From Capitulum mitella (taxonomy: Eukaryota; Arthropoda; Thecostraca; Pollicipedomorpha; Pollicipedidae), in assembly GCA_030062745.1 (NCBI GenBank), contig CP099848.1, positions 22,942,378-23,006,377 on the forward strand: a DNA stretch of 64,000 nt. Direction: 5' to 3'. Position 1 is the first letter of the stretch, and the number at the start of each line of letters is the position of its first letter. The translations under genes and the position numbers were made by a program. The notes under the pieces are model-generated. The model saw only the letters and a list, made by a program, of their open reading frames with translations, had not been told where the DNA came from and did no database searches. Positions 20,601 to 61,060 of this stretch are shown piece by piece.

Positions 20601-20612
20601 GACTTCATCACG
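20601..20612 (+). CDS. sowah: SOWAH exon E: 12-nt microexon encoding DFIT
   Basis: The four codons gac ttc atc acg lie between acceptor gtcacgccgcag and the consensus donor gtgagt. DFIT is the family-conserved link after the first ankyrin unit (normally followed by Gly-Tyr-Thr), and it fits exactly after the KHK at the end of exon D. It sits between introns of 18.0 and 15.8 kb. In-frame joining to the next recognisable exon gives DFIT-TALHW, which lacks two residues expected from the ankyrin consensus; see findings. Confidence 0.85.
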
Positions 20613-23600
20613 GTGAGTGACCAGCCAGTGGACCTGCCGGCCCGGCGCCCGCTAGCGGTGCCCCCGCGGCCCGGCTCCGTGAGGGAGTATCTGGCCCGCC
20701 AGCGCAGGACCTGTGTGGACGGCCGCCTAATCAGCGTGCCGTAGGATGTGACATATTGATTGTTTTCTGCTTCGTCGCGTTTTTTGCGCCACTTAAGCGC
20801 CAGTCCGGGCCAGTGAGTCGACAACTGATACCGCGAGGATCCCGCAGTCCGCGGTCGGTCGAGCACTACTACCGTTTTGAATGGTAATGTGCACCTCTGT
20901 CGTTTTGTTTATTGTGTTTGGGCCGTTCGCCCCCGCCGCGGTCAAGCAATGACTGCTGTGGTTGGGGATCACGCATGCGCAGTTCACAGAGCGTGTTTCA
21001 TTGATACAGACTGTGTTGCAGCAAAGAGTGGTGAGACAGAACATTTGTCCCCCTGAAAGCGTTCAACATACGGCACCATTATAGCTCATTTAGCCTCACC
21101 TTGGCCACCTAGAGACGGATGATTGCCTGAAACTGAGGGAACGTTAAACTGTAGCCGTTGTCCCTGCTAGCATTACGCTGACCAGCGCCGGACCGAGCCA
21201 GGTCCCGCCGACGGGAGTTCAGCGTTCACGTCGCTCGCGGCAGATTACAAAGCGCGTCTGCCGCGCGGCGGCGGGCGGACTAATTTGGTGCCTGTCGGGA
21301 CGCGGACGGCGCCGCCGGCGCCGCCTGAGCCCGGCCGCCGCCGCTTAATCATGTCCCGCCGTCGGAGCCGCCTTAAGCCGGCTTGCAGCGCGCGCCGCTG
21401 CAACATCTGTGCAAAATTAATGCAATCGACGTATTCACGCTGCGCGGACACGGGTTCCGCATCTCGCCGGCGGCCCCGGGATTACGGCTTCGCTAGCTGA
21501 GCAGCGGAGCCCGCGCCGGCTGCGTTGTTTTCTCCCCTTGCGCTTCTCTCCCTCTCTCTCGCCGCCGTTCCCATCCGTTTTCCGCGGGCGATGCGATGTC
21601 GGCTAGGGACTTAAGCGTGGTCTGAATGCTTCCCTGTTCTGCCACTTTCACGGTGACTCGTAACGTTGGAGGCTCTTGTGTCTTCACCGAGTCATGTTGG
21701 TGGCTGCAATTAAACTAGGCCTGGGAATGTTGGGATATTACAGAGGTACTGGCGTATCGTGATGAGCATCTAGGTTTCAATCGGCGACTGTCCCTCTGGC
21801 GTTCATGAATCGGGGACGGCCTGACCGTGACCCCGACCCGTCGGCCGCAGACCCCGGCCTGTCGACCGCTCCTCCCCCCCCCTCCGTCGGCCATTGTCGC
21901 CGACGGAGGCAACCTCAGCGAGCAGCTCTCAGGAGGCCGCCCAGCCCGCCGCTTGTGAGAGGCGAGCGCTTGCGGCGGATCGCGGCCTCTGGTCCAGGGC
22001 TGCAGTCCGCGGGGATGGGACCGTTTGGACCACCAGGCCACAGGAGCTGACGGCTCGTTTGGAAGGTACACGGGAGCCGGGCTGTAGTGCTGCGTCGTCC
22101 TTGGAGGTCCGTCTTAGACTGGCCGACCGACGGATGAAAGCGGTGCCGCCGTGGTTTCTGGGACTGCGGCCATCTGCGCTAGACGAGAAACCGTGCGTCC
22201 AGTCCAGTCAGGTTTGCCCGTGACTGTTTCAGTTATGAAAAAGGTAGCGAGCCGCGCCCAGCAAACACTCATTGAGCGTATTATTTTACGCTGCTCTTAA
22301 ATCGTGAAAAGAACCAAAGAACCAATAAAAAACATTTGTTGTTTGGCCGCGAATATTGTAACAAACGTCGCCCCGTTCAAATGCCGCCAACCCAACTCGC
22401 AGTAGCCATTCAGTGCCCGGTTCGGCCCGAATATAGCATTCGCGTACCGCCGTCTCGGCAGCGTGTGCTCGTTACACGATATCTGCCGCATCTGTACCGA
22501 ACGGAAACATGGCGGCCGACCGTGACGACCCGTCCACCTGTGCGGCGCCTCCGTGCACGTGACGCCGCGATGCTGGCCTGCCGGGCGTCACGTGACGCCC
22601 CATGTTTCCGGTGGCAACATGGCAGCCAGCGGGGGGGGGGGGGATGGGTTCACTGTCGTCGATATCTGTCCCTGCACATGGCACCATTAGTGTGAAGGTG
22701 ATGTCCCTCCCTCTGCCCCGCAACATGGCAGCCGTTTAAGTGAGCATTAATCAGGTGACTTCGGCCGTTTGTTGTTGGCATTACCGTTATTAATGTAGCA
22801 GTGTTTTTGCGATGTGGATGAAATGTCTGTTGTTTTGTTAGCCGGGCATGTTGAGTTGGCAAATGGTATGTTGAAGTGATTACTACATGCTAATGGATGT
22901 AGTTTCCTGTCCGTACACACAACGCATTCGCACCTGGTTCTTTGGACTGATGAAGATTGTCAATGTTTTTGTGCTCCCATCAGACCGGAGGGTTCTATTG
23001 CGCTCCCTTGTCGTCTGTTCTCATGAGGGCCTTTTCGCCAGAGGGCCAGGTGGCCCTACCGTCGCGACGTTTCAGGCACGCATGCTCGGTGCCCCGAGAC
23101 AGCTGTGCCGGAGTTATCGGAATTACTCGCCTGAAATGTCGCTTGCACGCTGTAGGTCGCCAACGGTCCGCCGCCGGCCTTCCAGCTCGCGTGAGCGTCG
23201 GCTGCTCCGCCTGCTGTTGATGTGGAAGCGGGACTGAGTTTACCGAAACGAGAAACGGGTGGACACCACCAGACCGTTTGAAACAGCCGCCCCATGTCGG
23301 AGCCTGCTTGTCGTGACTTTGTCGCCAAAACGGAAACCGGATTTAAGTATGGGTGAAGACACTGTCGTACTGTCGTGGGGTGTCCCACGTTGGACAGTTT
23401 TACGTCCATAGGTACCTGGTAAACCTGTTACTTCTGACTGGCGTCCAGGTGTCTCGGATTTACAGCTGGCCCGACTTGATGGACTGTCATCTGCCGGTCG
23501 TGCAGATGGGGTCGACGGGGCGCTGGCGCCGCCGGTGACGGGGCGTGAATGGTGGCGCTGCGGTGACTGGGGCCGGCCTGCAGACTCATGTCCCGGATAT

Positions 23601-25151
23601 CTTGTGTACCGTGGGGACGCTGGGTCAGCGGTGACCCGCGCGGTCCCGTTCGGCGGTCTGCAGCAAACCCTGCTCGGCCCAGCGTGACCTGGCGCTCTCC
23701 TCCGCGTCAAGTCGCTGCTAAACGGATGGCTGCTCTCACGCGCGGACAGGCCGTTCCCCTGTCGTTTGTCGTCTGCGTGGATATGCGCGTAATTCCCGAT
23801 TTTCTTGTCTGTTTCATGCTGCTGCTGTTGCGCTGACTCCCGGGTCCGGTCTCCGTGTCGACACCAACTCCAGGGCGTAAGTCTCTTCATGCCTTGTGTC
23901 TTCTGGTGGACGCGGCCGCCAAAAAATACCGGCCTCGGTGGAAAGGGGAGGGGGTGCTGTTGGACTCGCTGTTCGTGAGGAGTCATTCGCGAGTCCATTT
24001 GTGGGATGCACTGTCGTTTGCCGTCACGTGAGCACCGTGTCCCCTTGAAATGGAACCTGGAATGGGCGATTAAACAGCCCTTGCGGATGTTCCGATTTGG
24101 GGAACGTGCTTCTCACATGTTTTTCGTGTTGTTCGGGAAAAGCATCAGCCCGGCTGAACAAGTGCCAATGGCTCTTTACAAGGCAGTCCCGGAATTCCAT
24201 CGTCAGTCATGTTCGAGCGGTAGAAAAATCAGGCAAGGCATCCAGGGGGGCCCACTCGCTGGAACCAACGCCATTGTGGTGTTATTTCATTGAGATATGG
24301 AGCGTAACTTTGATTTGAGTAAACGTAGTACCGTTTTTGCAGTGACCAGCTTCCACCACTTGTTGCACCAAAACTGCAGAACTGCTGATTTGGCAGTGAT
24401 CACGTTCCACGAGATGATCCAATAAAACTAAGTTAGGCGAGCTGACACGTATCTGCTATGGTCTAAGCTGCCTAGGAAAAGTGTCGGTCTGCATATTACA
24501 TAACGGCTGTGGTATGCTGACGGCTTTCCGTTTTTTTCCATGTTGCTCCGGAATCGGCAACAGTACGTAAGTACCGTTTGGCGCTGCTCTCCTTACGCTC
24601 TCCGTGCGCAGCTCTCCGCGCTGTAGCCTTACGCTGGTTCCACCGACACCGCTGGGCCCGAACCTCACTTTTCACGCATGCAAATGCACGTACCGGGATG
24701 CTGATTACGACGAATGGCTTACCGCTTTCATGGAGCCGTTTGGGGTGTCGTCACAGCTGTGAAATGTGTGGCGTTGCACCCGTTCCTGGCATGTGTGTGT
24801 GTGGTGTGTTGCTGTTACGTCGGATCTGGGGTGACGGCCCAGCTGATAACACACACTCGCCTGGTGCCGGGCTCGATGTGGCCCGTTCAGGCTGCCTCTG
24901 TCGGGCTTGGATGGCTCGAGGAACAAATGAGCTCAGGTGTGGGGAGCGAGTAGGATCGTGCCGTATGCTGGACGATCCTGTGATATGATATGACGATATC
25001 GTATGACGATATGACGGACGATGGCAGGGATTTGAACGCGGTCTTAGCAGTTGCTGGAAGGGTTTAGGCCAAGAAGATGAAACATAACCATCCACTGGAT
25101 ACCAGTGCATGCTCGTTTGTACGCTGTTATAGTCTATACAGCACCGGCATA

Positions 25152-33865: not shown

Positions 33866-36370
33866 CCACAGGACCGTCCCGGCCGGCGCTGCGGCGACCG
33901 ACCGTCCCGCCCGCGATGCGTCTTCTCTTTCGTCAGCGAGGCGACGCCGCCGCCATGTCGTCGCGTCAGCCGGCCGCCGGCGACGTCAGGCGCGGTGACG
34001 TCGGCGTCGCGTCACAGACCGTGCGATGATGCCGTGCCGGCGCTCTGTTCGGCCGGGAGAGCGGGGCGGCGGCCAGCCGCGGCTGGTCTGCAACATTCTC
34101 GGAGAGCGCGGCCTCTCCTGGCCGGCGCCGCCGCCCGCTGGACCTGCGCGGCGCCGTTTGTGTGCCGCGCCCGCCCCGGATGAACCGCAGATAGTTCAGA
34201 GTATTTATGACGCGGCCGCCGTAAAGGTGTCCCATTTGGCGGAGTGATTCGGCTGCAGGGGATGGAAGGTATGATTAGCCGGTCAACGGTTGCTTTAAGC
34301 GGGCGGACGGCTCCGTAAAAACAAACACGGCCGGTCGGCCCGGCCGGCCGGCCGGCCGCGGTCGGACCCACCACCCGGCAATTACGCGCCGCGCCGGCGC
34401 GTATAAATCTTGCGTGAAATTCTGATTTAATTGTACGCTGCCGCGCGTCGAATTGATTAGAATTGGTCAGGCGGCCGCGGCGGCTGCAGCTGCGGCGGCC
34501 GGCGTCCTCGCTGGCCGAGAGCCGTCGTCGCCGTCGTGACCGGCCGCAGCCGTGGGGCGGCGGCTGACAGCCGTCGTCGCCGTCGCGACCGGCCGCAGCC
34601 GTGGGGCGGCGGCTGAGGGCGCGGGGGCGGGCGGCGGCCGGCGGTTCGCGGGACCGAGCTGGACGTCGGCCGGAAGGGAGGACCCGGCCGGCTGGTGTGC
34701 AGACAGGACAGAGTGGCGCCGCTCTGAAAATGAGGGGCGTTCAATGCTGCGGCGTTCCGTAGTTGGCTGACCAAGGGTTCATTATTCAGACTGCGTCGGG
34801 GAGCGTGGGAACTGAGTTACTGAACCCTGAAGTACGGGCCGTGGCGGTTTGGATTTCTGATGCCTGAATACTTGTTTGGGTTTGAGAAGTTGATCATTAA
34901 CCGTTGTAGCAAGTTAGGATATTTGGCACCGTTTTCACGATAGCGAACTCCCTGCTACTCAGTGTTGCAGTAGGTTACGCAGTTTAGTGTGCATTGCAGT
35001 CGAGTTACGTCATTACGCAAATGACGCTTTCACTCTCGAACTAAGACAATATTGTCGATTTGCGTATTGAAGCAGAGGGTATTAAAACGCGCTCACACAC
35101 CTACGTTTGGGTTTTAGGCTGTTTTATTTTTATAGGTATGTGTGTAGTGAAAATGATTGTTTGTTCGCCGTCATTTTTTTCTGCCACCTGACGTGTCTTT
35201 TTTTCTACCCAATATGACGATTTGCAAACCAAACTTCCTCAGTGATAGCTCCCACTCGGCGTAGATAAACAGGTCGACACGGAACGTAAGAGTTGCCTTA
35301 ATATGAGAATTCAGAAAACGAAACATGAAGTGTAGACATGTCACCTCGCTTGAATCACTTCTCAGTACCTGGAACGACAGTGACGGAATCCGTGTAGTGC
35401 TATCAGTACGTTTATTGCACACATCGGGTGTCTGTTGCTCTGACGCCTTGAGCCAGGCCATTGACGATTGTTCTTTTCCATTTCCTCCCATTTTTTTATT
35501 TATTTCTAGCGGTGTTTCTAGCAAGCATTTTTGTTCCACGGGGACTATATGTCGGCAGATACTATGACGCAGCTGTAGTATCATTACGTGCACAGTCATA
35601 TGTCATTTGCCAAGTGCCTTTTGCCTCGCTTGCTGAATGCCGAGCGTACCTTACGCAATTTATTTTTGGTGATCACTTCTGGCGTAATTTCCTGAAGATA
35701 TCCATAGTTTGGCTTAGCATTCTCCGTAGAATCGTCCTCCCGACGTCCCTCATTTTCTGCAGATTTGGCAGAAGCAGCGCGGAGCAGGCTTGGAAATTTT
35801 GTTTTTGTTCTCGGTGCTGGAGTATAAGTTTATTTTTTGGAGTACAAAATTTTGCAAAGGGTGAAACTGGTTTAAGGTTCCATTCTTCTTGTAATTCAGT
35901 TATGACATCATATCTGCTTGTTATGAAATGGAGAGGGAGTCATCTACTTGCAGAATAAGAAATTTGTGAACACGGTTCTAATGTAGCTTTTTGATGGAGG
36001 TACAAGATAAAACTTTTGGAGCATAAAATGTTTTTGGAGTACATAGTTTCTGGTGTTGTTCAACGCCAAAAAAACAACACATTTTCCAACCTTGGCGCGG
36101 ATCGGTTTGGCGGCACATGTGTGGAGACCGGCCTCACATCGGCCTATGTGTGGAGGAGCATCGTGCCTTTGTGGGACGGTTCAGTCCGCGGTGAACGGTT
36201 CCGAGACCGGCGGCGCGTTGTGTCTGCGATGCCGTGCTCTCCCGGATGCACAATGTGCTCTGCTTCACGCTGCACTTTCAGAGTCGATGTGCTCTTTGTG
36301 ACGCTTACTTTGACGCGGTGTTCTCCGTATCGATGTACGGAGAGTTCCTTAATAAGAGCTCCTGTTGCAG

Positions 36371-36460
36371 ACGGCGCTGCACTGGGCAGCCAAGAACGGC
36401 AACCTGGACGTAATCAAGCTGATAGCGGGCACCCACGGCGTCGACGTGGACTCGGCCTCG
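36371..36460 (+). CDS. sowah: SOWAH exon F: core ankyrin repeat
   Basis: This exon of 30 codons, phase 0 at both ends, lies between acceptor gctcctgttgcag and donor tcg|gtgagt. It encodes TALHWAAKNGNLDVIKLIAG followed by THGVDVDSAS. This is an ankyrin repeat with the TALHWAA signature, the helix pair and the loop DVDSAS (consensus DVNA). The preceding Gly-Tyr of the repeat is not encoded in this exon: upstream of the acceptor there is an in-frame stop in ttaataagag. Best-supported ankyrin exon of the gene. Confidence 0.95.
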
Positions 36461-37747
36461 GTGAGTGTAGCACCAATGTCGTTGATCGTCCCGTCCTGTC
36501 TCCTTGGACCAGAATTGGCCGGCCGCCACGAGGGAATGTTTATCTAGGCTCGTTTGTGTGTGTACTGATCGTTACATTGCAAAGGAAAGATGTTGACGGT
36601 GAGTAACTCCAGTTGCTGATTCATGTTGAGACTCGTGTCTGCATTGTCATGCGTGACGTTTTCAGGGTACTTTGTGATGCTGTGCTGTTTACGAAGAACA
36701 ACTGTGTTTCTGTTAAACGAATCGTTTTGTTTCTTGTCGGCGTTACCACGGACGTAACCTTTCGATGTTTGCGTCTTTGACGGTGCTTGGCAGCGTTACA
36801 CATTACGGTCAAATATGCTGTGTTCAAGATGAACCTGTGCTGCTCCCCCCCCCCCGCCAGCTATCCATCTCACCCAGTACTTAAAACTGGGTTATTTCAC
36901 TCTAAAAACATTCGCCGACGCTGGAGCCTGGCTGAGTCCCACTGCCTGAGGGCGACGCTGACGACGACGACCATTGCATGGGGAGAGGGGTGGGGATGTC
37001 CAGCCTGTTGGGCGGATGGTCCTTCAGGGAAATCTGAGAGTGATCTCGTCATCCGGGTGTCCACAATTCATCATCCCAGACTGAGGTCCCCAACGATAAA
37101 AAGTACAATAAAAACGCGCACAAAAACAGACGGCGTGATCGGGTGAGGTTAATCTGTATAAACTCCGTTATGTCATCTACCTCGGGCTCCGCTGTGGTCG
37201 CCTCCCAGTTCCTGAGATTGGGGACCGGGCCGCTGTGTCGGTCATTGTCGGGGGACCGGGCCCCCTGTGTCGGTCATTGTCGGGGACCGGGCCCCCTGTG
37301 TCGGTCATTGTCCGGGAACCGGGTCATTGTGTCGGTCATTGTCGGGGGACCGGGCCCCCTGTGTCGGTCATTGTCGGGGACCGGGCCCCCTGTGTCGGCT
37401 GGGCCAGTGTCCAGAGATCGGGCCCTTGTCTCCGAGTGCCCGTGGCCGGCCTGACTTCTCCGCGCCCGGAACGGCGTCAGCCGGCCCGGCGCCCCTATGC
37501 AGGCCGCGACCGGTTCTCCAAGTCAAATGGGCCGGCGCCGCGCCGTCGGCCAGCCGCTGTGACCGGAGAACCATTATCGCCTCGGCGCCGCATACGTTTG
37601 CATAGGGAGCGGCGGCCGGTTGGGCGCGCGGCGCCGCGGCCGGCCGTCGGCCTTGTGCCGTCCGTCTCGGCGGCCGTCCTGCCGGCGATGAGTCACTAAC
37701 GCCCTGTTTGTTTTCTTTCCATGGCGGCGTCGGACGCGGACGAGCAG
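36461..37747 (+). other. Intron F to microexon
   Basis: It contains the 31-bp minisatellite at 37219-37400 and then a very GC-rich region. Its end has a textbook branch-point-like actaac (37694-37699) followed by the pyrimidine tract cctgtttgttttctttcc (37703-37720). A C homopolymer lies near 36846. Confidence 0.55.
37219..37400. repeat. 31-32-bp minisatellite, about six copies
   Basis: The units read gtgtcggtcattgtcggg plus gaccgggccccct, with copies starting near 37235, 37266, 37297, 37328 and 37360. One unit has a truncated middle. Confidence 0.9.
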
Positions 37748-37753
37748 CACGGG
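37748..37753 (+). CDS. sowah: Proposed 6-nt microexon (His-Gly) of SOWAH
   Basis: The two codons cac ggg lie between the acceptor cgagcag (ag at 37746-37747) and a strong donor gtgagt (37754-37759). Upstream is a branch-point-like actaac and an 18-nt pyrimidine tract. Joining exon F to exon G directly leaves the ankyrin loop two residues short of consensus (DVDSAS-GYTPLH against DVNAxDxxGYTPLH); inserting His-Gly restores the length and phase exactly. Using the gag at 37743-37744 would add a Gln (9 nt). The same stretch could instead be an alternative first exon, with ATG at 37721 (11 residues, MAASDADEQHG). Confidence 0.55.
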
Positions 37754-38689
37754 GTGAGTGCGGTCGTTTGTCTCGCGCGCGCTCGGCGAATTAGTCACGC
37801 CGCCGCGCCGCCGGTCCGGCCGCGTGTCGTTTGTCGCGCGCGCGGCGCGGCCGGCCGGCCTGCGCAGCTGCGCGGACGTGTCGGACACGGCGACTTCCTG
37901 CGGCGCGGTCTGTCGCGCGGGTCGTCGGGGCCGGGCCGCACCTGTCCGCCGGCTGGACGTGGCCCGATGCCATGGCGGCGGCCGGCCGGCCGGCCCGGAC
38001 AGCGCGCGCCATCTAACGGGAGGGCGGCGCACCGGGCGGCGGAGGCGGCGGCAGCGGCGGCGGCGCCGTGACTCAGCGGCGCCGGAGACGGCCGGCGGAA
38101 GCCGCCCCCGCCGCCGCCGCCGTCGCCCATTGTCTGTCGGCGTCGACAGGTACACGCCCCGCGCGTCGACGGCGACGGCGCTGAGGGACGGCACCGGCCG
38201 GCCGGCGGCGCGGCCGGCCGGTGCCGCCGGTTTTTGCCGCGGCTGGCGTCAGCGCGGCCCCTCCCCTCCGCTCCTGCGCGGCGCCGGGCCCGCCCGGCCG
38301 GCTCCGGCGCTTCTGCCCGGCCCAGGGCCTCCGGATCGCGCAGTCGCCGAGTGGGAGATTCGCACGCGTCGCGCGGACGGAAATCACGACCTTTCGCCGG
38401 ACGCGCGACCCGCGTCGCGGCCCGTTCTCGAGCCTGTTGTCGCCGTGAGGTCGCGCTGTTCTCCGCCGTCGGCCGTCGGTCGCGTATTGGACGGCAGGCG
38501 TCCAGCGCCGGCCTGTCCTTCCCGGACAGGGGCCCCCGCCGGCCGGCCGGCCCGACCTCCAGCCGAGGCGTCCGGGCCCGCTAATTGCCCGCCTGGATTG
38601 ATGGTCGTCGCCGGTGATTAATCGATGGGGCGGCCGATATCGGCTAATGACGGCGGTGGGTGCCGCCTCCCGACGGGACCTGTCGCCGC

Positions 38690-39070
38690 CGACCTGTTTA
38701 CCCTGCCGACGACCTCTGTATCCACTACCATTGACCTCTGTATCCGCTACCGATGACCTGTGCATCCCCTATCGCAGACCTCTGTGTCCACTACCGCTGA
38801 CCTCTATCCACGGCCGATGACCTCTGCGTCCACTATCGCTGACCTCTGTATCCACGACCGATGACCTCTGCATCCCTTACCGTTGACCTCAATATCCACT
38901 ACCAATGACCTCTGCATACCCTACCGATGACATCTGTATCCCTACCGTTGACCTCCTGTATCCCCTACCGATGACCTATATTCCTTAACGATGAAGTCTT
39001 CATCCCCTTTTGAGGACCTCTTTATTCCTATTGATTGCCTCTGTCCCCGGTCACCGTTGACATCTTTGCC
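38690..39070. repeat. 24-26-bp minisatellite containing TGACCT
   Basis: About fifteen units of the type tgacctctgtatccactacc occur, the last ones decaying. Each carries a TGACCT word (reverse complement AGGTCA), so the array presents many nuclear-receptor half-sites at about 25-bp steps. Confidence 0.85.
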
Positions 39071-39786
39071 CCCCCCCCCGACCGCTTCTAATGGCTTTTT
39101 GGCTCCTGGGATTGCTGGCTTTATCTTCCACGCCTGGTGACCCTTTGTTACAGGATAAATCTGTCACGGGATGTAGATAAGGCCCACCTGTGTTCATTTC
39201 CGTAGCCTAGATGACTCATTTGGTCCTTGCTTCTGTCGGCGGCCAAAGTCGCATGGTGCCTGTGTGCCACAACTGTCAGGCTACAAGTCTTTTTCCCTGC
39301 TCCTTTTGCGGAGAAGAGTAGCAATCGTTAGGTCTTTTTAAGTTTCCGATTTTTGCCAAGTGATCTTAGTCAAAAATGACAGTTTAGTAGTAAGACTCGC
39401 TATGTTATGATTTGTTCACGACATTTTTTGCCAGTCATATTTGCCCTGCTGTTGGATTTTTTCTTCTTTTTGTGTGACATTTTTCCATTATGATTTAACT
39501 CCAGCAGTTCTTGAATGTGGGAGTTTGCTGTATAACGTAGCTGAATCACACGGGCATGAACTCGTGCCACCTGTTCTTGAGTATACAGTGAAAAATGTGT
39601 TGTTTTGTATACGTTGATGGACCAGTGGGGCAGCCCTGAGCGGAGCCTTCGGTCCGTTCTTTTGTGTGCTTCCGTCGGTCCTGTGTGCCGCCCTCTGTCG
39701 GTCTTACTTCCTCTAGGACAGTGATGTGTTTCCTGCTGTCGACCTGTCTCCAAGAACGCTGTGCTCCTCTCTGTTAGCCTCTCTCT

Positions 39787-40145
39787 GGTTGTTTATTGGG
39801 TTATTTAACGGCGCTCTCGACTACGTTATCCTCGTTTTGCGTGGGATTCTAAGCTGACCAGGGTAAGTGTTGTATCAACTGGGCACCGCTTTGTTCCGGA
39901 GGGACACGACCTTTCCGATATGAGACAGTGACGCGCCACGGTCAACGAAGGGTTGCGTACTACAGGGGGATAACCTGTATTCCATCTGGATCCAGGCACA
40001 TGCCTGCTTTTGACTGCCAGGGTCATTTTGCCCCGCAATTTCTCGCACTGGTTGTCGCGAAGGACGGCAAATTGTCTGGCACTTGACTCTAACCGGGAAC
40101 CTATCGGCCACAAGGCGAACATGGGAACCATTACACTACGCCGCC
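39787..40145 (-). mobile_element. tRNA-derived SINE
   Basis: On the minus strand the head (from about 40143 downward) reads gggcggcgtagtgtaatggt, containing an A-box-like tagtgtaatggtt, then about 35 nt later a B-box-like ggttagagtc, as in RNA polymerase III promoters of tRNAs. The tail reads gcgccgttaaataacccaat followed by aaacaacc, the kind of CGTTAAA...AATAAA tail common in animal SINEs. Total length is about 360 bp. Similar cctctct words flank both ends, a possible decayed target duplication. The body has no domain I can name. Confidence 0.6.
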
Positions 40146-41151
40146 CTCTTCCTCTCTGACGGTACTGTGGTCACCCTGCATGTTCCTCCCTGTTAGCCTC
40201 CCTCTCTCTCTCTGACGGTGCTGTGGTCGTTCTCTCTGACGGTGCTATGGTCGCCCTGTCCGTCTGCGGGCCGCCGCCGGCCCGACTCGGCTCGTACCTC
40301 TCGTAGATCACCTCTCGGCTGCTAATCGCCGCTCTGAGGCCGCTGACGGCCGGCGGCACGCGCCGCCGTCCGTCTCTCCGTCTGTCCGCTTGTCAACCTG
40401 TCAGCCTGTCAGCCTGCCGGCGCGGGCGGCGCCGCCGGTCGGCCGGGTCCGCTCGAGCCGCGCCGGCTGTTTTCGTTGGGCCGCGCCGGGGACAGCCGCC
40501 CGTCTGGGGAAAGGTCAGTGGGCGCGGCTGAATCAGCGCGGATGATCCGGTCCGTGAGCGCGGCCGTCGTCTGTTTGGACGCGGCCGGCGTCGGTCCGTC
40601 GGCGCCCGCTGACATCACCGGACGGCGCCGCGCCCGCCGGCCCGCCGTCGCCGCCGGTGCCGGTCGCCGTCGGCTCTCCAGCTCGCTCGGAGGAGACTCC
40701 GGGCGACGTCTGCGGTGCCAGCGGGAGATCGGACGGCCCGGGCGGGCGGCACCGTGGCGGCGGCAGGACGGCTGTTTGCCGAAGTTGCGGTGAAGACGCG
40801 GCGGCCGAGCGGCGCGGCGGAGGTGTTGTCTCCCGCGCGGACGTCGCGGCTGCCGCTCGCCACGGTTGGCACTGCCAGCGGACGGTGGTCGGCTGCTGAT
40901 CAGCCTTCACGACCGGCCATGGTGGAACCGTGTTGTTGTGACGGGCCGTCCAGCGGATGGCTTCATCATCGCTGGTTTAAACCAATGCATTACATCATGC
41001 GTCTGTTTTCTGCTTATTTTGAGTTGTTGACTCGATGTTCCCGCACTTCCGTACCAGCTAATCCCGTGCTGTCGCCGGAAATGATAGCAGCAGCCACTGG
41101 CCGCAGTTGCACCCCAGGGCTAATGACAAAGGAGTTGCCTCCTTCCGTCAG

Positions 41152-41224
41152 GGTTACACGCCGCTTCACATCGCCATGCAGTACGGCCACGAGGATGTGT
41201 TCGATCTTCTGGTCCACACATACG
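41152..41224 (+). CDS. sowah: SOWAH exon G: second canonical ankyrin repeat
   Basis: This exon of 24 codons plus one nucleotide lies between acceptor ccttccgtcag and donor tacg|gtgagc. It encodes GYTPLHIAMQYGHEDVFDLL followed by VHTY and the first base of a Gly codon. It carries the canonical ankyrin motif GYTPLHIA, with the helix pair to FDLLVHTYG. The split Gly codon is completed by the first two bases of exon H. Confidence 0.95.
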
Positions 41225-42218
41225 GTGAGCCGACGCGTGAGCCCAGTCTTCTGGCCATCCGGTTTACGTCGGTTTCGTTTGCATGTCGTGTGCTTGCTGT
41301 ATGATCATGTTGTCAGTGTGCCGTTATTAAGCCTTATCAGTCGACCAACGTTCGCCGTTTACCTTCCGTGGGCTCTGAGAATTGTTTTCCGTGAATTTGC
41401 TTCACCATTCCTTCAGTCGCCCCAGTCGTGCGTCCGATCACTGTCTCGTCTGATCCTCTTTGGGCTCGTCCGTCTTCCCTGTTCCGCCTGTCCCTCCTCC
41501 CCGCGTTCTGTCCGTCTTTCCCTCCGTCCGTGTCCTCCTGCCGCGGCTCCGTCGCGGCTCGGTCCGCGGCGGGCCTCGCTGTTGCCCCGGGCGGGGGCGG
41601 CGGCACGCGCGCCCCAGAGCCGGCCGCCGACAGACGGCGTCAGCAGGCGATACGGGCAGCCGTGTGTTTGCGTTAGTCGCCGGCCGCCGCCGCTGGCGGC
41701 CGACGCGCGCCTGGCCGCTTGCACGCATGGCCGGCCGGCCGGCGGCGGCGGCGGCCCGCGCGCCCCCGGGGACGCGGCCGCGCGGCGGCTGCTGGCCGGC
41801 CGGCGGCGGCGGCACGGCCGCGTCTGCGCCGCTCCGACCGCCGAGGGCAGTGGCGGTCTGCTGCGGAGCTGCCGCTGTCGGCGATGGTCTCATGTAGCAT
41901 TCGCGGTGCTGGGCCTGCCGGGTATTGGGTATATGGGTATTAAGTAGCGTGGCGGGTATAGACGAAACCTCGTTGTTGGCGTTGAGAAACGCTGCACTTT
42001 TTTACGAGTCACTGGTTGCATATCGGCGTCACGACTCGGCGGGCTACGATGTTCCTGCGGGCCCGACGCTGCGTCCCCGCCGGCCCGACGTCAGTGCGTC
42101 CACGGCCCGGATGGTCCCGTTCGGCGCGCAGGTCTCCTCTGGCTCCTCTGGCGCGTTTGCCAGCCCTGTGGCGGGCCGGCCGACGGCCGCGCCCGTCTGA
42201 CCGCCCGCCCGTCCGCAG
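41225..42218 (+). other. Intron G-H
   Basis: This 994-bp GC-rich intron ends in ccgcccgcccgtccgcag. Open frames on both strands around 41430-41900 are Arg/Ala/Pro/Gly-rich composition artefacts. No repeat or element is recognised. Confidence 0.7.
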
Positions 42219-42311
42219 GAGCCGACTCGAACCTGCGCGACTACAGCGGCAAGAAGCCGCGCCAGTACATGGTGCGCGAGGAGACCACCCTCTCGTCCGA
42301 GGCGTTCCGGA
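42219..42311 (+). CDS. sowah: SOWAH exon H: end of ankyrin domain
   Basis: The exon completes a Gly codon and then encodes ADSNLRDYSGKKPRQYMVRE and ETTLSSEAFR, leaving one nucleotide for the next codon. YGADSNLRDYSGKKPRQY is the ankyrin terminal half-repeat typical of SOWAH proteins (ANxxxRDxSGKKPxxY). The donor cgga|gtaagt is near-perfect. If this donor is ignored, the same frame stays open to a stop at 42698-42700; see the alternative terminal exon. Confidence 0.95.
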
Positions 42312-44043: not shown

Positions 44044-44067
44044 AGATCAAGAAGAAAAGGACTGCCG
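44044..44067 (+). CDS. sowah: SOWAH exon I: 24-nt microexon
   Basis: Two nucleotides complete a Lys codon, then IKKKRTA and the first base of a Glu codon. It lies between acceptor cccttttttcag and donor gccg|gtgagt. It links SEAFR to EKDSSFLRIG, giving FRKIKKKRTAEKD, a basic linker found at this place in the family and a possible nuclear localisation signal. Its length is a multiple of three and both sides have the same phase, so it can be skipped without breaking the frame. Confidence 0.9.
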
Positions 44068-46300
44068 GTGAGTAACCCAAATGTGACCGGGATCATCGTG
44101 TGACAAATAATGCAGCATGTTACATTGAAATTAACTGGTAACTTTGACATGTTCCTGTATCGTCATATAAGTAGTTGGAGGAGAGTTCTTGTGGCGTCCG
44201 AATTTCCTGTTGGCTGAGCGTCACAGAGGAGCGTAGTTTCGAATTATTTGTGTAGCTCTCTTCAGAGGTCCCCTCAGGGCGGCCGTGACAACAAAACACC
44301 GCCGCTGCCGCGTCTCACGCCGGATCCGCCGCAGGCGGCAGGCCCGCCAGGTTGCCGGCCGCTGTTAACAGCAGTTATCTTGGCACTCTTCAGGTCTGGC
44401 GAGGGGCCGTCAAGGGCTGTCAGCGGCCGTCAGGGTCTGATTAGGGTTTGTCGGGGGCCTTCGCCGAGTGGACAGGGTCCTCCAGGGTTTGGTCAGGGGC
44501 CTCCAGGTTCGGGTTTGGTCAGGGGCCTCTAGGTTCGTCAGGGCCGGTCATTGTCTGCATAGGGTTCGTGAGGGTGTGGCCAGGGTCCTGCAGGGTCGTC
44601 AGGGTCGGTCAGTCTCTGTACAGAGTTCGGCAGGGTGTGGCCAGGGTCCTGCAGGGTCGTCAGGGTCGATCAGTTTGTGTACAGAGTTCGTCAGGGTGTG
44701 GCCAGGGTCCTGCAGGGTCGTCAGGGTCGGTCAGTCTCTGTACAGAGTTCGTCAGGGTGTGGTCAGTGTCCTGCAGGGGCGTCAGGGTCGGTCAGTGTCT
44801 GTACAGGGTCCGATTGGGCGTGGTCAGGGTCCTCCAGAGTCGTCAGGGTCGATCAGTTTCTGTACAGAGTTCGTCAGGGTGTGGCCAGGGTCCTCCAGAG
44901 TCGTCATGGTCGGTCAGTCTCTGTACAGAGTTCGTCAGGGTGTGGTCAGGGTCCTCCAGAGTCGTCAGGGTCGGTCAGTCTCTGTACAGAGTTCGTCAGG
45001 GTGTGGTCAGGGTCCTCCAGAGTCGTCAGGGTCGGTCAGTCTCTGTACAGAGTTCGTCAGGGTGTGGTCAGGGTCCTCCAGAGTCGTCAGGGTCGGTCAG
45101 TTTCTGTACAGAGCTCGTCAGGGTGTAGTCAGGGTCCTGCAGGGTCGTCAGGGTCGGTTAGTTTCTGTACAGGACCCGTCAGGGTGTGGTCAGGGTCCTG
45201 CAGGGTCGTCAGGGGCGGTCGTTGTCTTTACAGGACCCGTCAGGGCGTGATCAGGGCCCTGCAGGGTCACCAGGGTCGGTCATTGTCGGTACAGGGTCCG
45301 CCAGGGCGTGGTCAGGGTCCTCCAGGGTCGTCAGGGCCGGTCATTGTCTGTACAGGACCCGTCAGGGTGTGGTCAGGGTCCTGCAGGGGCGTCAGGGTCG
45401 GTCAGTCTCTGTACAGAGTTCGTCAGGGTGTGGTCCGGGTCCTGCAGGGTCGTCATGGTCGGTCAGTTTCTGCACAGGACCCGTCAGGGTGTGGTCAGGG
45501 TCCTGCAGGGTCGTCAGGGTCGGTCAGTCTCTGTACAGAGTTCGTCAGGGTGTGGTCAGGGTCCGGGCCAGGCCGGACTGGTAGCGCGGCTCCAGGGCGC
45601 CGCGTCGTCTCTCCGCCGGTCTCGGCCGAAGCTCTGCCCGGACGATCGCACGGAGGGCGCCACGCTCGCCGCGCGCCGCCGCCGGCTTTCCCGGCCGGCC
45701 GGCGGCGCCTGCTGTCGGCGCGCCGCCGAGACGGCCGATTAGCGCCGAGAGGGGATGCCATTAATCCAGACCGGCGACGCCGCGCGACAGAATTAGCGCC
45801 GAGTGACGCGGCCCGGACGTCTTGGGCCGTCGCGCCGGCCGGCGGGGCGGGGTAGCGTTGCCGTCCCCCAAACACGGAGCGTGTTCGGTTAATGCACTCC
45901 GGTGCCGATGGTGTAGTCTGGAGGACGTGCTGAAATCAGGCGGGCGATAACAACGCCCGACGATCTACTGTGTACCGTCTGCTTCCAGTGCCTTCTGTTT
46001 GTCTACATGTGTGTTAACAGAAAGTGGTGATTTAGTGTGGGCCGTTGTAAATTAGTTAATCACAATTTCGTTATTTCATTTTTTTGTTTACTCAGACTAT
46101 TTCCGTTTTTTTTTTACGCTAGTCTCCCCTGTCACAAAAGGCATGGATAATTATCTAATCCTAGCGAATGTTTGTTTTTGAACGCTGGTTTTTCCGGTTA
46201 GTCTCTGCAGGCCACAAAAGGCACTCGTGAACTTTAGATCATTGCCTGTTGAATCGCCAAGACCGGCGTTCAAAGCTGACCCACCACGTCCTCCGAGCAG
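44068..46300 (+). other. Intron I-J
   Basis: Most of it is the 61-bp minisatellite (44385-45570), followed by a GC-rich stretch to about 45850 with AT words (attagcg, attaatcc), then ordinary AT-richer sequence. No second gene is seen. Confidence 0.7.
44385..45570. repeat. 61-bp minisatellite, about nineteen copies
   Basis: The unit is ggtgtggtcagggtcctcca, gagtcgtcagggtcggtcag, tctctgtacagagttcgtca plus one base. Successive copies at about 44941, 45002 and 45063 show the 61-bp period. Because 61 is not divisible by three and the unit has no stop in any forward frame, all three + frames stay open for 200 to 400 codons. These apparent proteins (VRVWSGSSRVVRVGQSLYR and shifts of it) are repeat artefacts. 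Variants: cctgcagggtc for cctccagagtc, gtttctgtac for gtctctgtac. Confidence 0.92.
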
Positions 46301-46446
46301 AGAAGGACTCCAGCTTCCTGCGGATCGGCTCGCTGAACGTGCGGGTGAAGAAGACGACCGAGGCGTTCAACAGCCTGCTCTCCACGGGCCTGAACATGGG
46401 CGACCGGCTGCACCGCGGCTGGGGCTCCTCGGACAGCGTCAACGAC
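46301..46446 (+). CDS. sowah: SOWAH exon J: conserved C-terminal block
   Basis: Two nucleotides complete a Glu codon, then 48 codons follow: KDSSFLRIGSLNVRVKKTTE, AFNSLLSTGLNMGDRLHRGW, GSSDSVND. Acceptor ctccgagcag; donor gac|gtgagt. FLRIGSLNVRVKKTTEAF is the most conserved C-terminal motif of invertebrate SOWAH proteins that I recognise. Its role is not known to me; it may be a short folded element or a binding motif. Phase at the end is 0. Confidence 0.93.
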
Positions 46447-46948: not shown

Positions 46949-47290
46949 GCGGACCGGGACCTGATGCCGCCGCCCAGGTTCAGCATCAAGAAGCGCAAGT
47001 CGAAGAAGGCGCAGGACTTCCAGAGTCTCAAGTCGCGCATCTCGGCGCCCATCCTGCAGCCGGGGGGCGGCCTGCCGATGCCACCGGCGCCGGCGCCGGC
47101 CGCCGCGCCGGCCGCCGCGGTTCCCGGCGGCGGCGGCGGCGGCGGCGGCGCGGCCGAGACGGACGGCCGCCGCCGCTCCGACGCCGAGCCAGCGCGCCGC
47201 TACAGCGATGACGCCGCCAGCCAGGGCGACTCGCTGCGCGGCGAAGACTCCGACTCTGACTACGGCTTCGGCTCCGGCTGGGCCGGCTAG
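46949..47290 (+). CDS. sowah: SOWAH exon K: C-terminal exon with stop
   Basis: The exon has 113 codons and a TAG at 47288-47290. It starts ADRDLMPPPRFSIKKRKSKK, a basic segment with a likely nuclear localisation signal, then AQDFQSLKSRISAPILQ, a Pro/Ala/Gly low-complexity stretch with eight Gly in a row, an RRRSDAEPARRYSDD segment and an acidic, Ser-rich end SLRGEDSDSDYGFGSGWAG. Phase 0 from exon J. GC third positions are near saturation. Confidence 0.92.
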   Translation, partial: ADRDLMPPPRFSIKKRKSKKAQDFQSLKSRISAPILQPGGGLPMPPAPAPAAAPAAAVPGGGGGGGGAAETDGRRRSDAEPARRYSDDAASQGDSLRGEDSDSDYGFGSGWAG

Positions 47291-51704: not shown

Positions 51705-52662
51705 ATGCCGATTTCCTTTCGCGAGGTTGTCACCGTTCATGATTCCACGAAACGAACGTATTCCGTTTCCTGGGGTTCCACGAAATATTGTATTGCTCAC
51801 GATATGCGTGCCATTAACAAGTGCCTGATTCCGAAGAAATTTGTTTTCCCGAACATGGATGATTTTCTGTTTTCATTGTACGGCTGGAAAAAGGCAAGCT
51901 CCCTTGATATCAGGCATGTCTCCATGTCGTTCGCAAAACATGCCATCCGCGCCGTGTACCTATGGGATGCATGCAGTCATCTTACTTTCTACATGTGGTT
52001 ATGCACAGGGTACTGGGTGATATTCCGGGGGTGCGTATGTACGCTGATGACGTGCTGCTGAGTCGCGCCAATCTCGACGACCATTACACGCTTCTTAGCA
52101 CGGTTCTTGAGAAGCTGAAATCTCCGGGTCTGAACCTGTCTTCCGGTAAGTGCAGCACTGGTGTCTCCCGACCGAATTATCTTAGCCATGAGATCACGTC
52201 GGCTGGTATCTCCATAGCCCCTGACCACATCCGGTGTATCAGGGACCTCCAGGTCCCGAGCTCTTTGAAGGTAGCATAGAGGCTTAGCGGCTTCTTTTTG
52301 CGGTTCAGAAAGCTCATCCAGTCATTTTCGAGTCTGGCGACTCCTTTGGTCGATTTGCTGAATCGACAAGGTTCTGCTGAAACGGAGAACTGAACTGATA
52401 TTTTTATACCCTGAGAGACGCCCTTTTGAGTGGCCGGCCCACGCAGGGCGACCGTTTCTTGCTGAACACGGATAGATGTATTAACGGCTTTGGCCAGATT
52501 TTGTGCCAGATACAGGAAGGTGTCGAGCGATTCATTGCTTTTAGCGGCAGCAAATACAGGCACAGTCGGAGGAAGTGGTCGGTCTACGAACTCGAAGTCG
52601 TTAGCTTCATCCAGGGGCTCGCTAACAGGCGGAGCCAACTCGTACAAAGCTGGCTTCGATGA
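51705..52662 (+). pseudogene. Decayed LTR-retrotransposon pol fragment (RT and RNase H)
   Basis: A first open segment (51705-52061) contains HDMRAINKCLIPKKF and NMDDFLFSLYGWKKASSLDI, which match reverse-transcriptase blocks (R.INK...P.P..DD...L.GA..FS.LDIRH). The polymerase box follows in another frame as MYADDVLL near 52036-52059, inside 51962-52279, with downstream blocks to SLK. An RNase H-like segment (FGQILCQIQEGVERFIAFSG) lies at 52426-52662. At least one frameshift near 52000 and a stop at about 52279 separate the parts, and the RNase H catalytic Asp region reads NTDRCINGFG. No LTR, gag or integrase was found nearby. Confidence 0.7.
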
Positions 52663-59300: not shown

Positions 59301-59585
59301 GTGGATGTGCAGCTCGATGGTCGACCCGTGGCCATGGAGCTGCATACCGGGGCGTCCCTGTCAGTCGGAGGTGAGCGCGTTTTCCGGCAGCTGCGGCCTG
59401 TTAACCCGCCAGTGCTAAGCCCCTGTTTTTATCGTGTCAAGACGTATAGCGGAGAAGTGCTGCCCGTGTGTGGGCGAGTTTCTGTTCGGGTGTAGTATCA
59501 AAAACAGGTGGTTCGTCTGCCGTTGGTGATTGTTGACGGTGATGGCCCTTGCCTGTTTGGCCGCAACTGGCTTGAAGGATATTAA
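59301..59585 (+). pseudogene. Retropepsin-like protease, active site altered
   Basis: The frame contains VDVQLDGRPVAMELHTGASL, where the catalytic triplet DTGA of retropepsins reads HTGA, followed by RVKTYSGEVLPVCGRVSVRV. A TAG stop follows at 59493-59495, after which the same frame resumes with LPLVIVDGDGPCLFGRNWL. The changed aspartate and the stop show a dead enzyme. Confidence 0.75.
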
Positions 59586-60600
59586 GCTGAATTGGCCAGC
59601 CGTTTGCCGTGTGGGAGCTCTTCCTCCGGTGGAGCCGATTCTTGCCCAATTTCCGGAGGCGTTCCAGGACGGTATGGGTTGCTGCCGAAGCGACCCTGTC
59701 CACATTGGCGTGGGCCCAGACGTCCAGCCCCGGCTCTTTAAGGCCAGGACTGGCCCGCTGGCGTATCGGGCACAAGTGGACGCGGAGCTGGGCAAACAAA
59801 TTGGTGAACCGATCGCTAACAGCTCGTGGGCGGTGCCGTTTGTGATTGCGCCGAAAACGAACGGTTCACTTCGAACCTGTGGCGACTATCGGTTAACGAT
59901 TAACAAAGTGGCCATTCCCTGCCAGTATCCGTTACCTCGTATTGAAGAGCTGTTGTCCAAACTGACGAGAACTTGTGTCTTCAGTAAGACTGACTTGAAA
60001 TGCGCCTATAACCAGCTCCCGCTTGATGAAGTGCCTGGAGAATACATCACTGTGAACACCCATCGCGGCCACCTGAAACTGACTCGCCTTGGTTCTGGGT
60101 ATTCATCGGCCCCGGCTCTGTTTAAAAGGATCCCTAAGACTCTTCTGGCCGTCATACCATTGTGATGGTGTTTTCGTGGACGATGTCGTCGTGTCGGGCG
60201 TGGACGTTGACTCTTACAACGCAGCGCTGAGGGCCGTCCTAAGTCTCCTTGAGTCCTCTGGTCCGCGTGTTAACCGGGAGAAGTGCCAGTTTGGGTTGGC
60301 CAAGGTGACTTATTTTGGTTACAAAATTCAAGGAGTTACAAAGTTACAAAGCTCATGGGGAATGCCGACTACCGAGGGCAAAGCACGGACCGTCTTGAGA
60401 GCACTCGGGCCCGATTCCGCAAGTAAGCTCAGATCTTGGCTGGGCCAGATTAACTACTACGGGAAGTTTCTCAGGGACCTGCTTACGATCCGTGCGCCAC
60501 TGTATGTGTTGCTGCGCCATAACCAGCCCTGGCGCTGGGGTGATGCTGGACGAAATGCATTCGAGGCAGGAAAACCCTTGTTGTTAAAACCGCCAGTGTT
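59586..60600 (+). pseudogene. Reverse transcriptase, frameshifted
   Basis: Blocks seen: GPLAYRAQVDAELGKQ, SSWAVPFVIAPKTNGSLRTC, GDYRLTINKVAIPCQYPLPR, VFSKTDLKCAYNQLPLDEVP and YITVNTHRGHLKLTRLGSGY, in the frame of 59530-60165. The frame then breaks near 60150. The polymerase box appears as VFVDDVVVSG (60171-60200) in the next frame, with NREKCQFGLAKVTYFGYKI after it. FVDD replaces the usual YxDD. A short duplicated phrase (ggagttacaaagttacaaag) near 60331 disturbs the region after it. Confidence 0.85.
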
Positions 60601-61060
60601 AGCTCATTTTGATCCAGAATACGGGATGGTGGTGTCAGCTAATGCCAGCCCCCATTGGTGCAGGGTGTGTCCTTAGTCAGATAACACCCAGCGGTGAGAA
60701 ACCTGTAGCCTTCTTTTCGCGCACCCTGAATGAAACAGAACGTCGTTATTCCCGGACAGATCGAGAGGGTTTGTCAGTAGTAGCTGGCGTAAAGAAATTC
60801 CACTGCTATGTGGCAGGTAGACCATTCCGGTTGGGGACCGAACGTAAGCCTCTACTAGGTTTGATCGGTGAGCACTTCCACTCATGGCGTCACCGCGAGT
60901 AGTGCGCTGGGCCGTGCTGCTGTCGGCGTACGACTATCGGCCAGAGTACCGTGCGGGTAGTTTTCAGGGCCACTGCGATGCGCTTAGCAGACTGCCGCTG
61001 CCAGACGCGCCTGCTGACGTCAGCAGTCCCGTGCCCGCCGAGTTGGCCCACATGCTGGGA
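60601..61060 (+). pseudogene. RNase H and connection to integrase, frameshifted
   Basis: The frame from 60609 gives GEKPVAFFSRTLNETERRYS then RTDREGLSVVAGVKKFHCYV, typical of gypsy RNase H; the catalytic DAS reads NAS just upstream, in the preceding frame. Another shift near 60890 precedes VVRWAVLLSAYDYRPEYRAG and CDALSRLPLP, the usual end of the polyprotein segment before integrase. Confidence 0.8.

Follow-up and report, generated by a model that had tools for sequence, protein, structure and literature searches.

Two ankyrin-coding exons of a barnacle gene, when joined directly, read DVDSAS-GYTPLH, and a preliminary description of the locus proposed that an exon of only 6 nt in the intervening intron adds His-Gly between them. 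Whether this exon is likely to exist, to which gene it would belong, and whether other residues of the same protein are encoded in the same way were examined in a stretch of 64,000 nucleotides from Capitulum mitella (the window; positions are counted from its first letter, and slashes in sequences mark exon boundaries).

The host gene and its exons

The ankyrin protein translated from the exons was closest, among the matches listed, to the Amphibalanus amphitrite 'SOWAHA-like' protein P0001 (83% identity over the searched part), and the partial Pollicipes pollicipes protein P0121 (LOC119098482) was 95% identical over 60% of a second query. The ankyrin repeats are followed by the FLRIGSLNV motif region, as in the SOWAH family. 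Of the SOWAH N-terminal winged-helix domain, PF25877, the end alone (KEFVNTLANIKLEDGEKYLVLKKKY) lies inside the window, and Pfam did not report the domain for the partial model. We infer from these similarities that the host gene is barnacle sosondowah (SOWAH). An Rfam scan of the window gave no match, and a structure search by sequence returned generic ankyrins only among its 60 best rows.

When P0001 was compared with the window by tblastn, exons A, B, C, D, F, G, H, I and J were found in order on the + strand, leaving three gaps in the conserved part, namely DFITGY before F, HG between F and G, and KIKKKRHGSKMHLG between H and I; a further difference from P0001 is the first Thr of the exon C stretch, which is Asn here. 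The features of the gene, with their basis in brackets, are as follows.

369-1132, + strand: exon A, end of the SOWAH N-terminal domain and a Pro-rich region, with the gene start outside the window (tblastn of P0001, splice sites read)
1335-1466, + strand: exon B (tblastn)
1845-1883, + strand: exon C, 39 nt, NPVDDEDSSSTAT (tblastn)
2460-2561, + strand: exon D, FEGINKEW..AKHK, first ankyrin helices (tblastn)
20601-20612, + strand: predicted microexon E1, 12 nt, DFIT (cag/gtgagt sites; 0/300 shuffles; Amphibalanus DFIT)
23874-23876, + strand: predicted microexon E2, 3 nt, GGC for Gly, ccag/GGC/gtaagt (ordered-pair shuffles; isoform pairs)
24564-24566, + strand: predicted microexon E3, 3 nt, TAC for Tyr, acag/TAC/gtaagt (shuffles; isoform pairs)
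36371-36460, + strand: exon F, TALHWAAK..DVDSAS (100% identical to Amphibalanus 439-468)
37695-37747, + strand: splice region upstream of M, with ACTAAC at 37695-37700, pyrimidines to about 37720, a spacer and a tandem GAG-CAG acceptor
37721-37753, + strand: putative alternative first coding exon, MAASDADEQHG, sharing the M donor (open frame; analogous short models elsewhere; chance control)
37748-37753, + strand: predicted microexon M, 6 nt, CACGGG for His-Gly, phase 0, second ankyrin hairpin loop (Amphibalanus HG; shuffles; homologue gaps)
41152-41224, + strand: exon G, GYTPLHIAMQYGH..HTY (96% identical to Amphibalanus 471-495)
42219-42311, + strand: exon H (tblastn)
44044-44067, + strand: small exon H2, 24 nt, IKKKRTAE (KIKKKRTADKD in Pollicipes P0121; varies between insect models)
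46301-46446, + strand: exon I, KDSSFLRIGSLNVRVKKTTEAF.. (tblastn)
46949-47290, + strand: exon J, ..GFGSGWAG and the stop codon (tblastn)

An early gene model with a direct H-I joint was dropped after the 24-nt H2 had been found. The counterpart of H2 in insect models reads IKARKKHAE, or FRKKD without the exon, and TGC is present 13 nt before it; in this pattern H2 resembles a cassette microexon. A tandem array (61-bp unit, about 17 copies) that is open in several frames occupies 44511-45564, in the H2-I intron. Elsewhere in the window, 51908-52276 and 59530-60673 contain reverse-transcriptase-like retroelement pieces, with RVT_1 above the cut-off only for the first and the others below. A crude six-frame scan of the window for the homeodomain motif WF[AQKIS]N[ARKH]R found none, so no Iroquois gene is claimed here; the Iroquois-Sowah block is reportedly the subject of a paper by Maeso and colleagues.

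Predicted exons for two ankyrin loops

On rereading the sequence, exon F was seen to end at 36460 (GCC TCG/gtgagt) and exon G to start at 41152 (cgtcag/GGT TAC), both in phase 0, with cag/CACGGG/gtgagt at 37748-37753, all as first described. Since the HG gap falls exactly between F and G, and both junctions are in phase 0, a 6-nt phase-0 exon encoding HG is required. Within the 4.7-kb intron (36461-41151), CACGGG was the sole AG/CAYGGN/GTRAGT site, and no such site arose in 300 dinucleotide shuffles. Looser patterns arose in 10 of 300 shuffles (CAYGGN with any GT donor) and in 12 of 300 (any AG/N6/GTRAGT), and over the whole window and both strands YAG/CAYGGN/GTRAGT had a match in 1 of 100.

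Splice sites were scored with a simple scheme based on textbook frequencies; for exon A the position scored lay 2 nt away from the true start. The M donor lay at the 99.5th percentile, and the M acceptor had the lowest score of the 14 exons scored, at the 26th percentile of intronic AGs. A GAG sits 3 nt upstream of the CAG, and only if it is ignored does the next AG lie about 52 nt before the CAG. The ACTAAC at 37695-37700, which contains CTAAC, and the pyrimidine-rich stretch after it are present, as the preliminary description stated; the position of the tract needs qualifying, as it ends near 37720, about 27 nt before the exon. About 350 bases upstream of M, a 31-bp tandem repeat occupies 37220-37398 (about 5.7 copies).

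It had also been claimed that HG restores the exact ankyrin consensus length. This does not hold, since TALH and TPLH are 34 residues apart when HG is present and 32 when it is absent, and a generic ankyrin repeat has 33. Pfam scores differ little between the two forms (Ank_4 43.6 with HG and 40.0 without; Ank_2 53.3 with and 54.3 without). Generic repeat length and Pfam thus leave HG undecided, and the SOWAH-specific length decides.

The Amphibalanus protein P0001, itself a predicted protein, reads DVDSASHGGYTPLH at this point (DVDSAS-HG-GYTPLH). Its residues 439-468 fall in exon F (identical) and 471-495 in exon G (96%), with HG, residues 469-470, alone left over. Homologues were taken from three protein searches (the best 120 of 590, 119 of 119, and the best 120 of 231, with only 7997 candidates scored in the second), which together listed 275 different proteins; the distance from LHW to GYTPLH was measurable in 206 of these and not in 69. 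The usual spacing of 30 or 33 residues was found in 169 of the 206, and 166 of these end in xG, the three exceptions being P0270 (VC), P0032 and P0116 (both FQ). Exactly two residues were missing in 30 models (25 with 28 residues, 5 with 31), all of which join S or T straight to GYT; they include Scylla, Diaphorina, Tenebrio, several Lepidoptera, several Drosophila, Anopheles and Hymenoptera, and some are named isoforms. Two fish proteins had 29 residues and end in SHG, and the other five had 23 (one), 34 (two), 43 (one, ending in QNG) or 44 (one). A conserved, often missed 6-nt exon would leave the gap seen in the 30 models, and true skipping in some species or isoforms would match it too. 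P0021 and P0025 (TT-VSI) and P0270 (RT-VC) look like read-through of the GT donor at the same exon end. SHGG is carried by P0117 and P0120, which we take, from their names (TRINITY, GFUD), to be transcript assemblies.

The second gap, DFITGY (P0001 residues 433-438), lies before exon F. DFIT is encoded at two places on the + strand of the window, of which 20601-20612 alone, corresponding to DFIT in P0001, is flanked by splice sites (cag/GACTTCATCACG/gtgagt); the E1 site pattern was found in 0 of 300 shuffles. Between 20613 and 36370 there were seven stop-free 3-nt AG/NNN/GT candidates with at least 5/6 donor matches, and the two among them whose donors match at 6/6 are a Gly codon at 23874-23876 and then a Tyr codon at 24564-24566, in the needed order. 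An ordered GGN-then-TAY pair appeared in none of 300 shuffles, and any two or more AG/NNN/GTRAGT sites in 19 of 300. By donor score E2 reached only the 94th percentile, and by acceptor score E3 the 60th. E1, E2 and E3 fill the DFITGY gap in order and phase, with a predicted insert between 2561 and 36371 of GACTTCATCACGGGCTAC; the run occupies 20601-24566 in the 33.8-kb stretch between D and F. Other solutions were looked for between 2562 and 36370, where there was neither a single 18-nt DFITGY exon, nor a 15-nt DFITG-like exon, nor a 6-nt GGN-TAY exon with AG..GT; a listing of other 6-nt exons from 20613 onwards gave no suitable one. Among the solutions tried for DFITGY, 12+3+3 nt is the only one that fits.

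Insect models read DPTSGY, DPTSG, DPTSY, DPTS, LKY or LK before TALHW. We compared 13 isoform pairs, picked as their names or loops suggested a difference, and 10 of them (bees, ants and Anopheles merus) differ only in DPTS-G-Y, nine by G or Y alone. G is exchanged for Y in three Bombus species and one Eufriesea pair; G is present or absent in another Eufriesea pair, Acromyrmex echinatior, Temnothorax curvispinosus, Monomorium and Anopheles merus; and a third Eufriesea pair has Y versus DPTSG. The Apis and Photinus pairs differ in DPTS-G-Y and elsewhere, and the Wasmannia pair only elsewhere. These predicted proteins support G and Y as separate units, and canonical tandem splice sites could not yield G or Y alone, because no GGN codon ends in AG and no TAY codon starts with GT. 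Aligner limits may be the cause of the G-only and Y-only isoforms. In fish, the residues before TALHW are DFTS-QTPT-F in P0222 (Pseudochaenichthys SOWAHC) versus DFTS-G-F in P0218 (Sparus), a difference which hints that a boundary around G may be older than arthropods.

Both loops were evaluated with a SOWAH profile built from 27 hand-picked non-barnacle sequences and with an alignment of 31 picked sequences, both of which consist mostly of intact loops and so lean towards inclusion. The Gly of HG is invariant in all 31 aligned sequences. With every tiny exon included, the window protein scored 258.6 bits against the profile; the score fell to 246.6 when HG was left out (12.0 lost), to 246.7 without GY, to 242.8 without DFIT, and to 222.7 without all four. 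An AlphaFold2 model of P0001 (31 sequences) had a mean pLDDT of 61.7 overall, with block means of 93-98 for residues 401-510, and placed HG (469-470) and DFITGY (433-438) between helices, in blocks at pLDDT 95-97, so that all four tiny exons are modelled as coding loop residues that adjoin the GYTPLH or GYTALHW motifs.

The proposal that a 6-nt microexon fills the ankyrin loop is supported by Amphibalanus HG, the family pattern and the SOWAH profile score. With a probability of roughly 0.9, on the evidence of genome and protein sequences, we take CACGGG at 37748-37753 to be a 6-nt phase-0 coding microexon of SOWAH between F and G, supplying the His-Gly loop that leads into GYTPLH, and to form with E1 (12 nt), E2 and E3 (3 nt each) a group of four whose codons supply residues of the two inter-repeat loops of the ankyrin domain.

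Splice layout and alternative readings

Five exons of the gene are at or below 30 nt (6, 12, 3, 3 and 24 nt), and all five have CAG before and GTRAGT after them, the M acceptor scoring low. At E1, E2 and E3 a branch-like word, CTGAC, stands 38-44 nt before the acceptor and is followed by pyrimidines, and no other AG occurs upstream of these acceptors for 74, 124 and 82 nt, respectively. A layout rule written after E1-E3 were seen (distal branch-like word, pyrimidine tract, AG-free zone of at least 50 nt) selected 5 of 1121 intronic YAG sites, E1-E3 among them, and, of the 10 other exons tried (M among them, A left out), fitted none. M has a similar plan, with CTAAC (its A 49 nt upstream), the pyrimidine tract described above and no AG but the GAG, yet it fails the rule. 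TGC also occurs near the acceptors of ordinary exons in the gene and was not counted as evidence.

Because relatives keep these residues, the four tiny exons would be included in the main full-length transcript, and from the protein gaps the exons themselves are probably conserved across Pancrustacea. They may be recognised through their GTRAGT donors together with a branch point and pyrimidine tract about 38-49 nt upstream. The distal branch point would free room for the splicing machinery on both sides of an exon of 3-12 nt, and the two sides would probably be recognised in successive steps, although both the order of splicing and the role of the branch point are conjectural.

An extension of this idea, which we regard as doubtful, is that the run (12-3-3-[90]-6 nt) has been obligatory since the pancrustacean ancestor and acts as a series of coding ratchet points, with each tiny exon joined to the upstream exon first and then re-spliced from its own strong donor, thereby dividing long introns (18.0, 3.3, 0.7 and 11.8 kb) that would be kept long by Iroquois enhancers, as in flies. 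The recursive-splicing ratchet points of Drosophila likewise place an acceptor almost against a donor in long introns; however, in the portion of that source available, acceptor and donor are juxtaposed, whereas E2 and E3 retain 3 coding nt (PMC8605326).

It is also possible, though we think it unlikely, that the chief use of the donor at 37754 is for an alternative first exon starting near a CpG-rich stretch, giving a short protein, MAASDADEQHG-GYTPLH, without the N-terminal domain and first repeat, while the long form could use the 6-nt exon in parallel. The ATG at 37721, in the context tttccATGG, and the frame from it through MAASDADEQHG into M's donor were found as first described, and an in-frame ATG in a CCATGG context speaks for a start here. 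Of the stretches listed from 36000 to 41499, 37500-38499 is the richest in CpG (o/e 1.34-1.39), but such a stretch is not rare here, since an o/e above 0.9 with GC above 0.65 was reached by 24 of 127 windows of 500 bases. Similar short proteins are annotated elsewhere, as 12 models, drawn from ten insect species, start at a Met and continue through QNG into GYTPLH (P0124, P0126, P0142, P0172, P0177, P0180, P0181, P0186, P0188, P0190, P0193 and P0195), for example Ptiloglossa MLRSSCCTQNGG, Choristoneura MWCSTCGRRKQNGG (two isoforms) and Amyelois MWRFVWRQNGG, and Drosophila albomicans has ..CRLQHGG after a longer lead. However, in eight of the 12 an intron ending in ATGCAG would be enough to create the Met, since five begin with a bare MQNGG and another three (Epargyreus, and Leptidea twice) likewise have Met right before QNGG. 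The remaining four (Ptiloglossa, Choristoneura twice, Amyelois) have no peptide in common with the barnacle. Pollicipes P0121 starts inside exon G (MQYGHED) and not with MAASD, as several other models also start inside G; it is marked partial, shows no joint to exon F, and may have been truncated where the microexon was missed. Of 1121 intronic YAG sites, 79 have an ATG in open frame within the 15 codons upstream, as does E3 (MLLRNRQQ), and predictors unable to place a 6-nt exon would be expected to make such starts. The alternative first exon is thus weaker than the microexon reading.

We consider it quite improbable that the microexons are optional neuronal cassettes of the eMIC (Srrm) kind, skipped in most tissues. 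Fly eMIC exons are described, in the sections of the source available, as having weak donors, CUAAY branch points, UGC close to the acceptor and extended zones free of AG (PMC8797185). Here, CTAAC is present at M and the long AG-free zones resemble this description, that of M only if its GAG is disregarded, and H2 is variable between insect models. In contrast, the M donor is strong (99.5th percentile) and no TGC was found within 25 nt of M, unlike the UGC and weak donor of eMIC exons, and skipping M, E2 or E3 would remove conserved loop residues.

A direct F-G joint in the barnacle, with HG lost and the CACGGG site coincidental, is hardly credible: it could draw on the 30 of 206 assessable models with such a joint and on the weak M acceptor, but the nearest orthologue covering the stretch keeps HG, the site encodes HG in phase with a GTGAGT donor, and some of those models have a sister from the same species with the residues (in Aphidius gifuensis, P0110 lacks NG and P0104 has it).

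Relation to known microexons and meaning for sowah

Exons of 3 nt are known elsewhere. The 3-bp micro-exon of Drosophila homothorax is alternative and conserved in evolution (PMC7392893), and 3-nt exons are known in mouse Ncam and in Drosophila TnT, where the exon is alternative (PMC8042270). These are, like E2 and E3, single-codon exons that keep the frame, but in the excerpts available they are described as single tiny exons, whereas sowah would have two in succession, with regular inclusion in a folded domain (PMC7392893, PMC8042270). Human RPS24 likewise has consecutive microexons between two exons, but they are described, in the extracts at hand, as alternatively spliced, and the gene is unrelated (PMC12686416, PMC11162997). 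Among plants, tiny conserved exons are missing from annotation, as in sowah; rice has adjacent 5-nt and 12-nt exons, and GTRAGT donors are conserved at 1-nt exons, although kingdom and genes differ from those here (PMC8831610, from the part available). Within arthropod SOWAH, P0001 shares the loops DFITGY and HG, and both P0001 and P0121 have FLRIGSLNVRVK[KR]TTEAF; among these records the tiny exons are located in DNA only here, the Pollicipes record being a partial model from exon G.

A literature search found no paper combining 'microexon' and 'sowah', the available portions of papers on successive or tandem microexons make no mention of sowah, and the word is absent from the main texts of PMC8042270 and PMC8797185. 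Microexons, including those of 3 nt, and adjacent tiny exons are therefore known already, and what is unusual is the succession of two single-codon exons in a folded domain.

With E1-E3 and M in one folded domain, the gene would offer a clean test of how the splicing machinery finds exons too small for exon definition, and of whether a distal branch point solves the problem. Interest in the gene extends further, since in flies regulatory regions of Iroquois genes lie within its large introns (PMC12311624, in the part available), and the Iroquois-sowah linkage is described, in the available text, as kept for more than 600 million years (PMC5803294). For the family, missed tiny exons would offer a reason why a number of arthropod sowah models are split, truncated, or one or two residues short, and they illustrate how ankyrin-loop residues can vanish in annotation.
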